Part shown: positions 25,574 through 31,236 of the stretch, in pieces
How the letters are laid out: the number at the start of each line of letters is the position of its first letter
How positions within the stretch are numbered: the stretch's first letter is position 1
Assembly (NCBI RefSeq): GCF_017832975.1
Contig: NZ_JAFIBI010000001.1
Span: 2,170,001 to 2,234,000 of the forward strand
Source of the DNA: Arthrobacter sp. PvP023
Lineage (GTDB): Bacteria; Actinomycetota; Actinomycetes; Actinomycetales; Micrococcaceae
Direction of reading: 5' to 3'
DNA length: 64,000 nucleotides
Program-made: the position numbers and the translations under genes
Notes under the pieces: model-generated
What the model saw: only the letters and a program-made list of their open reading frames with translations
Databases searched by the model: none
What the model was told of the DNA's origin: nothing

Positions 25574-27295
25574 ATGAGTGAGGACACCCAAACCGCGACA
25601 GAAAACAAGCCGGACATCAAGCCCCGCAGCCGGGTCGTAACCGATGGAATCCACGCCGCTCCCGCGCGTGGAATGTTCCGGGCGGTCGGCATGGGCGACG
25701 ACGACTTTGCGAAGCCCCAAATTGGCGTGGCTAGTTCCTGGAACGAGATCACTCCCTGCAACCTTTCCCTAAACCGGCTGGCCCAGGGCGCCAAGGAAGG
25801 CGTCCACGCCGGCGGCGGGTTCCCCATGCAGTTCGGCACCATCTCCGTCTCTGACGGCATCTCCATGGGCCACGAAGGCATGCACTTCTCCCTCGTCTCG
25901 CGCGAAGTCATTGCCGACTCCGTGGAAACAGTGATGCAGGCCGAGCGCATTGACGGATCGGTGCTCCTGGCCGGTTGCGACAAGTCCCTGCCCGGAATGC
26001 TCATGGCAGCCGCGCGCCTGGACCTCGCCAGCGTGTTCCTCTACGCCGGCTCCATTATGCCCGGCTGGGTCAAGCTGGAGGACGGTTCCGAGAAGGAAGT
26101 CACCCTGATCGACGCCTTCGAGGCCGTGGGCGCCTGCGCCGCGGGCAAGATGAGCAGGGGAGACCTTGACCGCATCGAACGCGCCATCTGCCCCGGCGAA
26201 GGTGCCTGCGGCGGCATGTACACGGCCAACACCATGGCCTGCATCGGCGAAGCCCTGGGCATGTCCCTGCCGGGCTCCGCAGCCCCGCCCTCGGCAGACC
26301 GCCGTCGTGACGAGTTCGCCCGCAAGTCCGGTGAAGCGGTGGTCAACCTGCTCCGCCTCGGCATCACCGCACGCGACATCATGACCAAGAAGGCCTTCGA
26401 GAACGCCATCGCCGTGACCATGGCATTCGGCGGCTCCACCAACGCCGTGCTGCACCTGCTGGCCATCGCCCGCGAAGCTGAAGTGGAACTGACGCTGGAC
26501 GACTTCAACCGCATCGGCGACAAGATCCCGCACCTGGGCGACCTGAAGCCGTTCGGCCGTTTCGTGATGACCGACGTCGACAAGATCGGCGGCGTTCCGG
26601 TCATCATGAAGGCACTGCTCGACGCCGGGCTGCTGCATGGCGACTGCCTCACCGTCACCGGTAAGACCCTGGCGGAAAACCTGGCGTCCATCAACCCACC
26701 GGACCTGGACGGCAAGATCCTTCGTGCCCTGGACAACCCGATCCACAAAACCGGCGGCATCACCATCCTGCACGGTTCCATGGCACCTGAAGGCGCCGTC
26801 GTGAAGAGCGCAGGCTTCGACGCCGACGTCTTCGAAGGCACGGCCCGCGTGTTCGAGCGCGAGCAGGGTGCCCTTGACGCGCTCGACAACGGCAAAATCG
26901 CCAAGGGCGACGTCGTGGTCATCCGCTATGAAGGACCGAAGGGTGGCCCGGGCATGCGCGAAATGCTCGCCATCACCGGCGCCATCAAGGGTGCCGGGCT
27001 GGGCAAGGATGTCCTGCTTCTCACGGATGGCCGCTTCTCCGGCGGTACCACCGGCCTGTGCATCGGCCACGTCGCCCCTGAAGCAGTCGACGGCGGCCCG
27101 ATCGCCTTCGTCAAGGACGGCGACCGCATCCGCGTTGACATTGCCGCCCGCAGCTTCGACCTGCTCGTGGACGACGCTGAGCTCGAGTCACGCAAGATCG
27201 GCTGGGAGCCGCTCCCGGCCAAGTTCACCAAGGGCGTCCTGGCTAAGTACGCCAAGCTGGTGCACAGCGCCTCCACCGGCGCATACTGCGGGTAG
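25574..27295 (+). CDS. ilvD: Dihydroxy-acid dehydratase
   Basis: Fe-S enzyme that dehydrates dihydroxy-isovalerate and dihydroxy-methylvalerate, the third step of valine and isoleucine synthesis. At 573 aa it is full length. The cluster cysteines lie in [14 protein letters not shown] (about residue 135) and in [16 protein letters not shown] (about 207), with the C-terminal [19 protein letters not shown]. Its own promoter (leaderless) and the long palindrome at 27315-27380 separate it from the ilvBNC transcript. Confidence 0.97.
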
Positions 27296-27380: not shown

Positions 27381-27412
27381 GATGGCGCTCAATCCGTGGA
27401 CAATGGAGTCCA

Positions 27413-27454
27413 TATAGTGAGACGGGGATGTGTGTCGTTGACACCCGTCTCACT
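27413..27454 (+). promoter_or_regulatory. Promoter and 5' hairpin of the ilvB leader
   Basis: TATAGT (27413-27418) is a good -10, placing the start near 27425. Overlapping it, AGTGAGACGGG (27416-27426) is exactly repeated inverted at 27444-27454. The right arm would lie in the RNA. The GTGAGAC half matches the motif before ilvD (25472-25478), so this may be an operator rather than an RNA stem. No convincing -35 is seen. Confidence 0.5.
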
Positions 27455-27473
27455 TAGAGGGAAAACTGAACGC

Positions 27474-27545
27474 ATGATCGCATTCGTTACCAACTGCGCC
27501 GCTGCAGAAGCAGTCGTCGTCCTTACCAAGCGCGTGGCTCAATAG
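27474..27545 (+). CDS. ilvB leader peptide (attenuation)
   Basis: A 23-codon ORF, too short for usual gene calling, between the promoter and a rho-independent terminator. Seven residues are branched-chain: Ile2, Val5, Val14-Val15-Val16-Leu17 and Val21. Three consecutive GTC codons followed by CTT form the ribosome-stall site expected when valine or leucine tRNA is uncharged. This matches the ilvB leader design known from Corynebacterium ilvBNC. The ATG has GAGGGAAAA 12-20 nt upstream, a usable ribosome site. Confidence 0.85.
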   Translation: MIAFVTNCAAAEAVVVLTKRVAQ

Positions 27546-27572
27546 CCCGACTGGTAACGAACCGTCACGCGC
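27483..27572 (+). promoter_or_regulatory. Alternative RNA pairings of the ilvB attenuator
   Basis: TTCGTTACCA (27483-27492, inside the leader ORF) pairs perfectly with TGGTAACGAA (27552-27561). GCGCGTG (27530-27536) pairs with CACGCGC (27566-27572), just before the terminator stem. The two pairings cross, so they exclude each other except as a pseudoknot, as in a translation-controlled attenuator. Which fold favours read-through is inference. Confidence 0.6.
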
Positions 27573-27610
27573 AACCCCTCGAAGAGCCGCCAGGCTGAGG
27601 GGTTTTTTTT
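27573..27610 (+). terminator. Attenuator terminator before ilvB
   Basis: AACCCCTC (27573-27580) pairs with GAGGGGTT (27597-27604), followed by a run of eight T (27603-27610). It is 28 nt past the leader peptide stop and 69 nt before ilvB, so it terminates transcription prematurely when branched-chain amino acids are plentiful. Confidence 0.88.
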
Positions 27611-27678
27611 ATTTGTTTCAGTTATTGCACCCGTCATGAGAACCACCCGCTAATAAAGATCCACAAAGGAAGAGTCCG

Positions 27679-29580
27679 ATGAGCAAAGGATCGCCGATCA
27701 GCCCCTCGCTGATGGCTACAAAGTCCGCTGGAGCCCCCAAGGCTCCGGAACGCGCCGACCGCACGGCCGATGCCGGCGTCGAGCACGCTGCTGCTGTCTC
27801 TCCTGTCCTTGGACCGAACAACGTCGTACCCCCGACGGTGATGACCGGTTCACAAGCAATTGTCCGCTCGCTCGAAGAACTCGGCGTGGACGATATTTTT
27901 GGTTTGCCCGGTGGCGCGATCCTGCCCACCTATGACCCCTTGATGGCCTCAAGCATGAATCACGTGCTGGTCCGTCACGAACAGGGAGCCGGCCACGCCG
28001 CGCAAGGCTACGCCATGGTTACCGGGCGGGTTGGCGTTTGTATTGCCACCTCGGGTCCCGGGGCCACCAACCTCGTTACCGCCATCATGGATGCGCACAT
28101 GGACTCCGTGCCGCTCGTGGCCATCACCGGCCAGGTGTCCAGCGGAGTCATTGGTACAGATGCTTTCCAGGAAGCGGACATCGTGGGCATCACCATGCCT
28201 ATCACCAAGCACTCGTTCCTGGTGACCGACCCCAACGACATCCCGCATGTCATGGCGGAGGCGTTCCATCTTGCGTCCACGGGCCGGCCCGGCCCGGTGC
28301 TGGTGGATGTCGCCAAGGATGCCCAGCAGGGCCAGATGACCTTCTCCTGGCCGCCGAAGATCGACCTCCCCGGCTACCGCCCGGTGCTCCGCGGCCACAA
28401 CAAGCAGGTTCGCGAAGCAGCGAAGCTGATTGCCGCGGCCAGCAAGCCCGTCCTCTACGTCGGCGGCGGCGTGGTGAAGGCGCACGCCTCCGTTGAGCTG
28501 CGGGAACTCGCAGAAATCACCGGCGCGCCCGTGGTCACCACCCTGATGGCGCGGGGCGTGTTCCCTGACTCGCACCCGCAGCATGTCGGCATGCCGGGCA
28601 TGCACGGCACGGTCTCCGCCGTGACCGCGCTACAGCAGTCCGACCTGCTCATCACGCTGGGAGCCCGTTTCGACGACCGGGTAACCGGCGTCCTGAAGAC
28701 GTTCGCGCCGAATGCGAAGGTGATCCACGCGGACATCGATCCTGCCGAGATCTCCAAGAACCGCACAGCGGACGTTCCGATCGTGGGCTCCGTCAAGGAG
28801 ATCATCCCGGAGCTCACCGAGGCCGTGAAGACGCAGTTTGCGGCTTCCGGTAAGCCGGACCTGGAGAACTGGTGGACGTTCCTGAACAACCTGAAGGAAA
28901 CGTATCCGCTGGGCTGGACCGAGCCGGAGGACGGGCTCACCGCACCGCAGCGCGTCATTGAGCGCATCGGTGCCCTGACCGGTCCCGAAGGGATCTACGT
29001 CGCTGGCGTTGGCCAGCACCAGATGTGGGCGGCGCAGTTCATCAAGTACGAACGCCCCCACGCCTGGCTGAACTCAGGCGGAGCCGGCACCATGGGCTAC
29101 GCCGTCCCCGCAGCCATGGGCGCCAAAGTGGGCGCGCCCGACCGCGTGGTCTGGGCCATCGACGGCGACGGGTGCTTCCAGATGACCAACCAGGAACTGG
29201 CCACCTGCGCCATCAACAAGATCCCCATCAAGGTTGCCGTCATCAACAACTCCTCGCTGGGCATGGTGCGCCAGTGGCAGACCCTCTTCTACGAAGGCCG
29301 CTACTCGAACACCGACCTGAACACCGGCCACGAAACCGTCCGGATCCCGGACTTCGTGAAACTGGGCGAGGCCTATGGCTGCGCATCCTTCCGGTGCGAG
29401 CGCGCTGAGGACATCGACGCCACCATCCAGAAAGCCCTGGAAATCAATGACCGCCCCGTGGTCATCGACTTCGTGGTGAGCCCGGACTCCATGGTGTGGC
29501 CAATGGTGCCCGCCGGAGTGAGTAACGACCAGATCCAGGTCGCCCGCAACATGACCCCGGAATGGGAAGAGGAGGACTGA
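27679..29580 (+). CDS. ilvB: Acetolactate synthase, large subunit
   Basis: ThDP- and FAD-dependent enzyme that makes acetolactate and acetohydroxybutyrate, the committed step of valine/leucine and isoleucine synthesis. 633 aa with an N-terminal extension of about 50 residues. The ThDP glutamate lies in [17 protein letters not shown] (about residue 99) and the ThDP/Mg motif is [18 protein letters not shown] (about 493-510). AAAGGAAG lies upstream of the ATG. It starts the ilvB-ilvN-ilvC operon under the attenuator; ilvN begins 2 nt after its stop. Confidence 0.97.
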
Positions 29581-29582
29581 TC

Positions 29583-31236
<1,654 letters not shown>

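Follow-up and report, generated by a model that had tools for sequence, protein, structure and literature searches.

The region 27413-27678 of the window, the window being the whole stretch of 64,000 nucleotides analysed in this study, very probably attenuates transcription of the ilvBNC operon in a ribosome-mediated manner, and the ilvB leader within it probably lets the ribosome sense the supply of valine and leucine. The leader and its terminator are situated upstream of ilvB-ilvN-ilvC-serA in the Arthrobacter-like genome of a soil bacterium, and the IlvB protein has its nearest named relatives in Arthrobacter and Paenarthrobacter. A sequence-only reading of the same letters had proposed ribosome-mediated attenuation of ilvB through a leader with Val-Val-Val-Leu, and this core proposal is supported by the covariation of the helix formed by GCGCGTG and by a scan of ribosome positions along the leader. 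Attenuation of ilvB is known from Corynebacterium (PMC11857589) and Mycobacterium (PMC13236596), and our data widen this experimentally supported control to Arthrobacter and many other actinobacteria, while supplying a covarying ilvB antiterminator, which the comparative study of 2005 did not name. The features considered are as follows.

25574-27295: ilvD, which precedes ilvB in the gene order
27438-27443, + strand: TTGACA, the likely -35 box for transcription of the ilvB leader, at conserved spacing to the ATG of the leader ORF
27462-27467, + strand: AAAACT, putative weak -10-like hexamer, 18 nt past the -35 box and at -12 to -7 if transcription starts at the ATG
27474-27545, + strand: leader ORF MIAFVTNCAAAEAVVVLTKRVAQ*, probably leaderless
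27483-27492, + strand: 5' strand of the candidate anti-antiterminator helix, TTCGTTACCA
27513-27524, + strand: regulatory codons Val-Val-Val-Leu (GTC GTC GTC CTT)
27530-27538, + strand: 5' strand of the antiterminator helix, GCGCGTGGC
27536-27547, + strand: small hairpin GGCT-CAAT-AGCC with the stop codon inside
27552-27561, + strand: 3' strand of the candidate anti-antiterminator helix, TGGTAACGAA
27564-27572, + strand: 3' strand of the antiterminator helix, GTCACGCGC, flush with the terminator
27573-27610, + strand: predicted intrinsic terminator, with stem AACCCCTC/GAGGGGTT, inner AGCC/GGCT and a U-tract of 8
27679-29580, + strand: ilvB, acetolactate synthase large subunit (NCBIfam PRK07789, 1115.8 bits)
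29583-30095, + strand: ilvN, acetolactate synthase small subunit (NCBIfam PRK11895), with a putative start codon
30220-31236, + strand: ilvC, ketol-acid reductoisomerase (NCBIfam PRK05479), with a putative start codon
31379-32968, + strand: serA, phosphoglycerate dehydrogenase, the next gene downstream (NCBIfam TIGR01327)

Leader ORF and promoter region

The 23-codon leader noticed from the letters was recovered in full, opening with ATG at 27474 and comprising 23 sense codons (MIAFVTNCAAAEAVVVLTKRVAQ) before TAG at 27543-27545, and it was found in 100 of 101 genomes of the same genus. The genus peptides vary in length by whole codons only, as their indels are all in frame, and they share the form xFVT...VVVLTKRVA, the core VVVLTKRVA being conserved in the 100 genomes. 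This short ORF with a codon run for the pathway product is predicted to be translated, and a run of branched-chain amino acid (BCAA) codons stands at the position of 27513-27524 in nearly all leaders of the genus and most of those of the family. Across the family, ilvB could be placed in 32 genera, and short peptides like MQxxxVVVLTKRVA are encoded in most of those whose leader is recognisable. No BCAA leader was recognised within about 420 nt of ilvB in several family genera with small genomes (L158, L160, L163, L164, L166-L169 and L171), where it is possible that the control has been lost or moved.

Upstream of the leader, TTGACA was detected 35 or 36 nt before the ATG of the ORF in 100/100 genus leaders; in the family leaders, TTGAC[AT] stands at a distance of mostly 35-37 nt from it. 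Since this constant spacing fits a -35 box with a start at the ATG, the ORF is likely to be transcribed from its ATG and thus to be leaderless; transcription of ilvBNC in C. glutamicum begins one nucleotide from the leader ATG (PMC11857589). In the -10-like hexamer, the A at -11 and the T at -7 are widely conserved, and a generic promoter scan scored no promoter at the leader, the AAAACT hexamer included.

Two dyads were also observed around the -35 box. TGGAC-N6-GTCCA (27397-27412) lies upstream of it in 61 of 78 aligned genus members, with 30 occurrences of the pattern in the genome vs 20 for a reversed control, and GTGAGAC (27418-27424)...GTCTCAC (27447-27453), which is conserved, brackets TTGACA. 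An RNA hairpin of GTGAGAC/GTCTCAC was considered and set aside because the dyad stands upstream of the presumed transcript start, so it was treated as a DNA element. Both dyads look like operators of a DNA-binding regulator, and they lend themselves to an account in which the leader is translated and control lies elsewhere, the dyads binding a DNA regulator and the RNA structure being a constitutive leader. In favour of this account stand the conservation of TGGAC-N6-GTCCA and GTGAGA...TCTCAC and an S. coelicolor result, cited in PMC1262725, in which altered regulatory codons in front of ilvB were without effect. This result is a warning against extending the attenuation model to all actinobacteria. 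However, the class-wide covariation and the exact positioning of the antiterminator at the BCAA codons would then need another reason, and codon changes do matter in two other species, as three Val-to-Ala changes abolish induction in C. glutamicum (cited in PMC11857589) and codon replacement in a reporter abolishes it in M. tuberculosis (PMC13236596). We therefore consider control by a DNA regulator instead of attenuation unlikely; DNA-level control could exist besides it.

The probable antiterminator helix and its contact with the terminator

The pairing of GCGCGTG (27530-27536) with CACGCGC (27566-27572), proposed from the letters as a helix of 7 bp, is complementary as described and extends to 9 bp, GCGCGTGGC:GTCACGCGC, with one G-U; it also clearly passed the covariation check in both the family and the class-wide sets, Mycobacterium and Rhodococcus included. 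The strength of the 9-bp helix was reached in 0/60 dinucleotide shuffles of the window leader, and in the genus the CGC and GTG codons of its 5' strand are identical in 100/100 and 99/100 leaders, respectively. In 20 of 25 family genera the strongest leader helix lies at most 4 nt from the CCCC of the terminator, where 4.2 were expected from shuffles, and an unbounded search for the strongest helix placed it 1-4 nt before the CCCC in 44/58 family leaders. When other genera were aligned, the GCGCGTGGC strand after the BCAA codons paired with a strand ending 1-4 nt before the CCCC. A consensus of 13 genus leaders by RNAalifold consists of the antiterminator and the terminator and not of the TTCGTTACCA helix.

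The covariation of the antiterminator reached 0.226 vs 0.133 in shuffles within the family (24 arm pairs; 0/500 as high), and 0.375 vs 0.132 (0/500) among 25 distinct arm pairs, nearly all of them from other families, for arms that were chosen by hand and partly hand-picked at about one entry per distinct arm pair, related sequences not being independent. In the same 25 arm pairs, 92% of the cells are paired and 38 changed on both sides vs a shuffle mean of 13, and the signal was lost in both the family and the other-family sets when the partner was shifted by 1-3 columns. The set does not include genus g15, whose register differs. Compensating changes include GCGCCTGGC:GCCAGGCGC (leader L154), GCGCATGGC:GCCATGCGC (L156), GCGCGTC:GACGCGC (L128) and CAGCGCATGGA:TCCATGCGCTG (L170). 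Because the stop codon stands at or directly before the antiterminator strand in L109, L110, L117, L118 and L170, leaders of several genera (e.g. TAG CGCGTG), the peptide cannot explain the conservation of the strand, which is conserved as RNA; in L213, L214, L224 and L232 the stop codon forms its first three bases.

Some deviating leaders were observed. In L123, L130, L135, L146 and L150 (genera g17 and g23), GCGCGGAGC faces GTGACGCGC or GTAACGCGC, with mismatches that interrupt the helix, and most leaders of these two genera show a different strongest helix. The most diverged genus leader, L099 (G091:C14:9100-9700; MIILGTVGVVLLMGRVAL), keeps the antiterminator strands exactly, and the TTCGTTACC pairing is missing from it, as is the second TTACCA.

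The dependence of this helix on translation was modelled with an assumed ribosome footprint of the P site +/- 15 nt. For the window leader, the antiterminator has a probability of 0.6-1.0 for A-site codons up to the Val at 27513 (about 0.9 at 27513 itself), 0.15-0.19 at the second Val (27516) and 0.00 from the third Val (27519) to the stop, so that the modelled switch point falls inside the regulatory codons. The last codon that still permits the helix encodes Val, Leu or Ile in 83/100 genus and 41/44 family leaders, and with the ribosome at the stop codon the antiterminator is blocked (<0.05) in 144/144 leaders (100 of the genus and 44 of the family). According to the model, then, the antiterminator would require a ribosome that has gone no further than the valine run, and it is never formed once the stop has been reached.

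A mechanism can be proposed on this basis. Transcription would start at or next to the leader ATG, and the ORF would be translated without a ribosome-binding site. With charged tRNAs for Val, Leu or Ile, the ribosome would reach the stop at 27543 and cover 27530-27538, which would prevent the antiterminator, and RNA polymerase would stop at 27573-27610. With these tRNAs uncharged, the ribosome would wait at or before the Val run, and the free 27530-27538 could pair with 27564-27572; the helix formed with the ribosome waiting at the BCAA codons should favour read-through, as expected from the direction of control known from experiments in M. tuberculosis and C. glutamicum. Ending at the start of the terminator stem, the antiterminator would keep this stem from closing in the RNA exit channel, and ilvBNC would be transcribed. 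Likewise, in attenuation of the E. coli trp type the position of the ribosome chooses between antiterminator and terminator, and a third pairing takes effect in the absence of leader translation.

Between the leader and ilvB lies a predicted intrinsic terminator, near-invariant in the genus, and the hairpin with eight T described from the letters corresponds to it, with the stem at 27573-27604 and the T run at 27603-27610. Variants with compensating changes were read by eye in other genera, and a generic terminator scan missed the stem at 27573-27604 because of a bulge in it. Left unmentioned in the sequence-only reading was the fact that neither of the two crossing helices overlaps the terminator stem. 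The overlap of the antiterminator with the extended terminator stem is 0 in 99/100 genus members, so that the contact is flush, and it amounts to 3-5 nt in Corynebacterium and Mycolicibacterium, where the antiterminator reaches into the terminator base; as this survey looked no further than 6 nt from the terminator foot, its absolute counts are biased in favour of contact. A search for an antiterminator sharing bases with the 5' arm of the terminator, CCCCTC, gave a single candidate, GAGGG (27457-27461; 5 bp), which was rejected because it would probably be untranscribed if the start is at the ATG.

The terminator has a probability of 1.00 in every ribosome state modelled for the window leader, so that secondary structure alone gives no competition. 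In this respect the description of the leader as a complete attenuation module was right in that all the elements are present, but overstated, since the antiterminator lies flush with the terminator and has no bases in common with it. When 14 species were scanned, the loss of the terminator was tied to the antiterminator only in the leader of M. vaccae, with a 5-nt overlap of the helices, and in L122 (Micrococcaceae) the terminator value is lower in all ribosome states. The antiterminator of E. coli trp shares a full strand with its terminator, whereas the helix of the window only abuts it. We infer that the flush helix prevents termination, and steric exclusion at the RNA exit channel is a possible way for it to do so. 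A generalisation to the Actinomycetes, in which the ilvB antiterminator mostly ends at the terminator foot without common bases and acts by exit-channel steric exclusion rather than base competition, the overlapping forms of Corynebacterium and Mycolicibacterium being variants, is offered tentatively and has slightly less than even chances in our judgement. The conserved flush contact makes it testable whether an upstream helix can stop an intrinsic terminator without sharing bases with it.

The same geometry, coaxial and without intervening bases in the extended stem, together with the predicted coexistence of both helices, would equally suit a helix 27530-27538:27564-27572 that stacks on the terminator and strengthens it, so that a ribosome at the stop codon would relieve termination. 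Expression would then be higher at plentiful BCAAs, opposite to what is found in M. tuberculosis (PMC13236596) and C. glutamicum (PMC11857589), and the overlap of 3-5 nt in Corynebacterium and Mycolicibacterium would weaken termination and not strengthen it, which makes stacking quite unlikely compared with antitermination.

The helix crossing the antiterminator

The second pairing described from the letters, TTCGTTACCA (27483-27492) with TGGTAACGAA (27552-27561), is a genuine complementarity of 10 bp, but its covariation is weak and not clearly above shuffles (0.120 vs 0.102, with 54/500 shuffles as high and 3 cells changed on both sides). This helix is confined to the genus and nearly invariant there, two of its pairs having a change on both sides, and in the CCGGCAACG group one inner pair is broken. 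The GTT codon within it is kept in 96/97 leaders, GTT making up 12% of the Val codons in six neighbouring genes. This conservation of silent sites and the predicted dominance of the helix when no ribosome is present (P 0.95) fit the role of an anti-antiterminator: with no ribosome on the leader, 27483-27492 would pair with 27552-27561 and disfavour the antiterminator, and transcription would stop again.

A further pairing, absent from the sequence-only reading, is that of the second TTACCA (27523-27528), an alternative partner of 27552-27557. Other genera retain it in part; in the CCGGCAACG group it is disrupted, its share in the folds is small, and it was not adopted. The small hairpin at 27536-27547 folds, and its GGC...GCC is kept in nearly all genus members with a varying loop.

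That the helices 27483-27492:27552-27561 and 27530-27536:27566-27572 cross is confirmed by their coordinates. Their mutual exclusion, as claimed from the letters, holds as a prediction of nested folding only; a pseudoknot containing both crossing helices is conceivable in principle. A pseudoknot switch in which both form jointly, like the LEU element described as a pseudoknot upstream of actinobacterial leuA (PMC1262725), would be allowed by the loops of 37 and 13 nt. Against it, the first helix is absent from other genera which keep the antiterminator, the 3' strands of the two helices are linked by just 2 nt, and no conserved loop bases indicate a ligand pocket, so that we regard such a switch as very improbable. 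The LEU element belongs to another gene, leuA, with whose Shine-Dalgarno box its leader codon run pairs, and the codon run of the window is unpaired with the ilvB start region in the fold. A ligand-binding riboswitch with a three-way junction closed by the antiterminator helix, sensing an amino acid or ppGpp directly, is scarcely credible: the helix can enclose two hairpins in other genera, yet the inner hairpins and loops show no conservation from one genus to another, a search of the leader against Rfam 15 gave no family match at any useful score (the ppGpp riboswitch included), and the related ilvB-II RNA shows no ppGpp response (PMC10272879). At a relaxed Rfam threshold the sole match was a chance miRNA, which was dismissed. 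Folded as a whole, the leader has a modest energy advantage over shuffles (z -2.2).

Known attenuators and distribution in Actinomycetes

The three-hairpin attenuator of C. glutamicum ilvBNC (PMC11857589; Morbach et al. 2000 cited there) resembles the region in its operon, in a leader peptide with a Val run, in the order anti-antiterminator (a candidate in the window), antiterminator and terminator, and in an antiterminator 5' strand placed just past the BCAA codons. Its antiterminator has been tested by mutation, and the hairpin mutations support the direction of control (PMC11857589). The difference is that this antiterminator shares the boundary GCC with the terminator (an overlap of 3 nt), whereas the overlap in the window is 0; moreover, the anti-antiterminator sequences are unrelated. 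In Corynebacterium stercoris (L286), the same procedure found GGCGCUUG:CAAGCGCC with a 3-nt overlap of the terminator, as published for C. glutamicum, which identifies the counterpart, and the helix 27530-27538:27564-27572 corresponds to the tested antiterminator of C. glutamicum. As the 3-nt overlap was looked for in the window and an overlap of 0 was found, we class the region as a ribosome-mediated attenuator of ilvB with a form of its own, apart from the exact C. glutamicum system, whose position before the operon and way of working it shares.

The attenuator of M. tuberculosis ilvB1NC, as described in PMC13236596, likewise has a BCAA uORF, an antiterminator and a terminator upstream of ilvB, and differs in that its mapped leader is described as not leaderless (PMC13236596). 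The ilvB-II RNA motif of Corynebacterium shares with the window a BCAA-rich uORF, a stem across the uORF (its P1) and a terminator stem, whereas it is described only in Corynebacterium and its sequences differ (PMC10272879). The ilvB leaders proposed for Corynebacterium, Mycobacterium and Streptomyces in PMC1262725 have peptides with BCAA runs and terminators; the text of that paper names no ilvB antiterminator, its genome list is without Arthrobacter, and its ORFs are said to overlap the terminator, whereas the ORF of the window ends before it. The literature found holds no attenuation experiment for the genus Arthrobacter.

With regard to distribution, the order of BCAA uORF, helix and terminator was not found in Bifidobacterium and most of the Microbacteriaceae loci examined, where the script may have missed it. 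The same order was found in 36 of 51 further loci at the order and class levels, as well as in 31 of 58 titled loci, including those of Mycobacterium, Rhodococcus, Nocardia, Lentzea, Janibacter, Cellulomonas and Corynebacterium. Other leaders of Mycobacterium (L268, L283 and L284) display the same flush helix.
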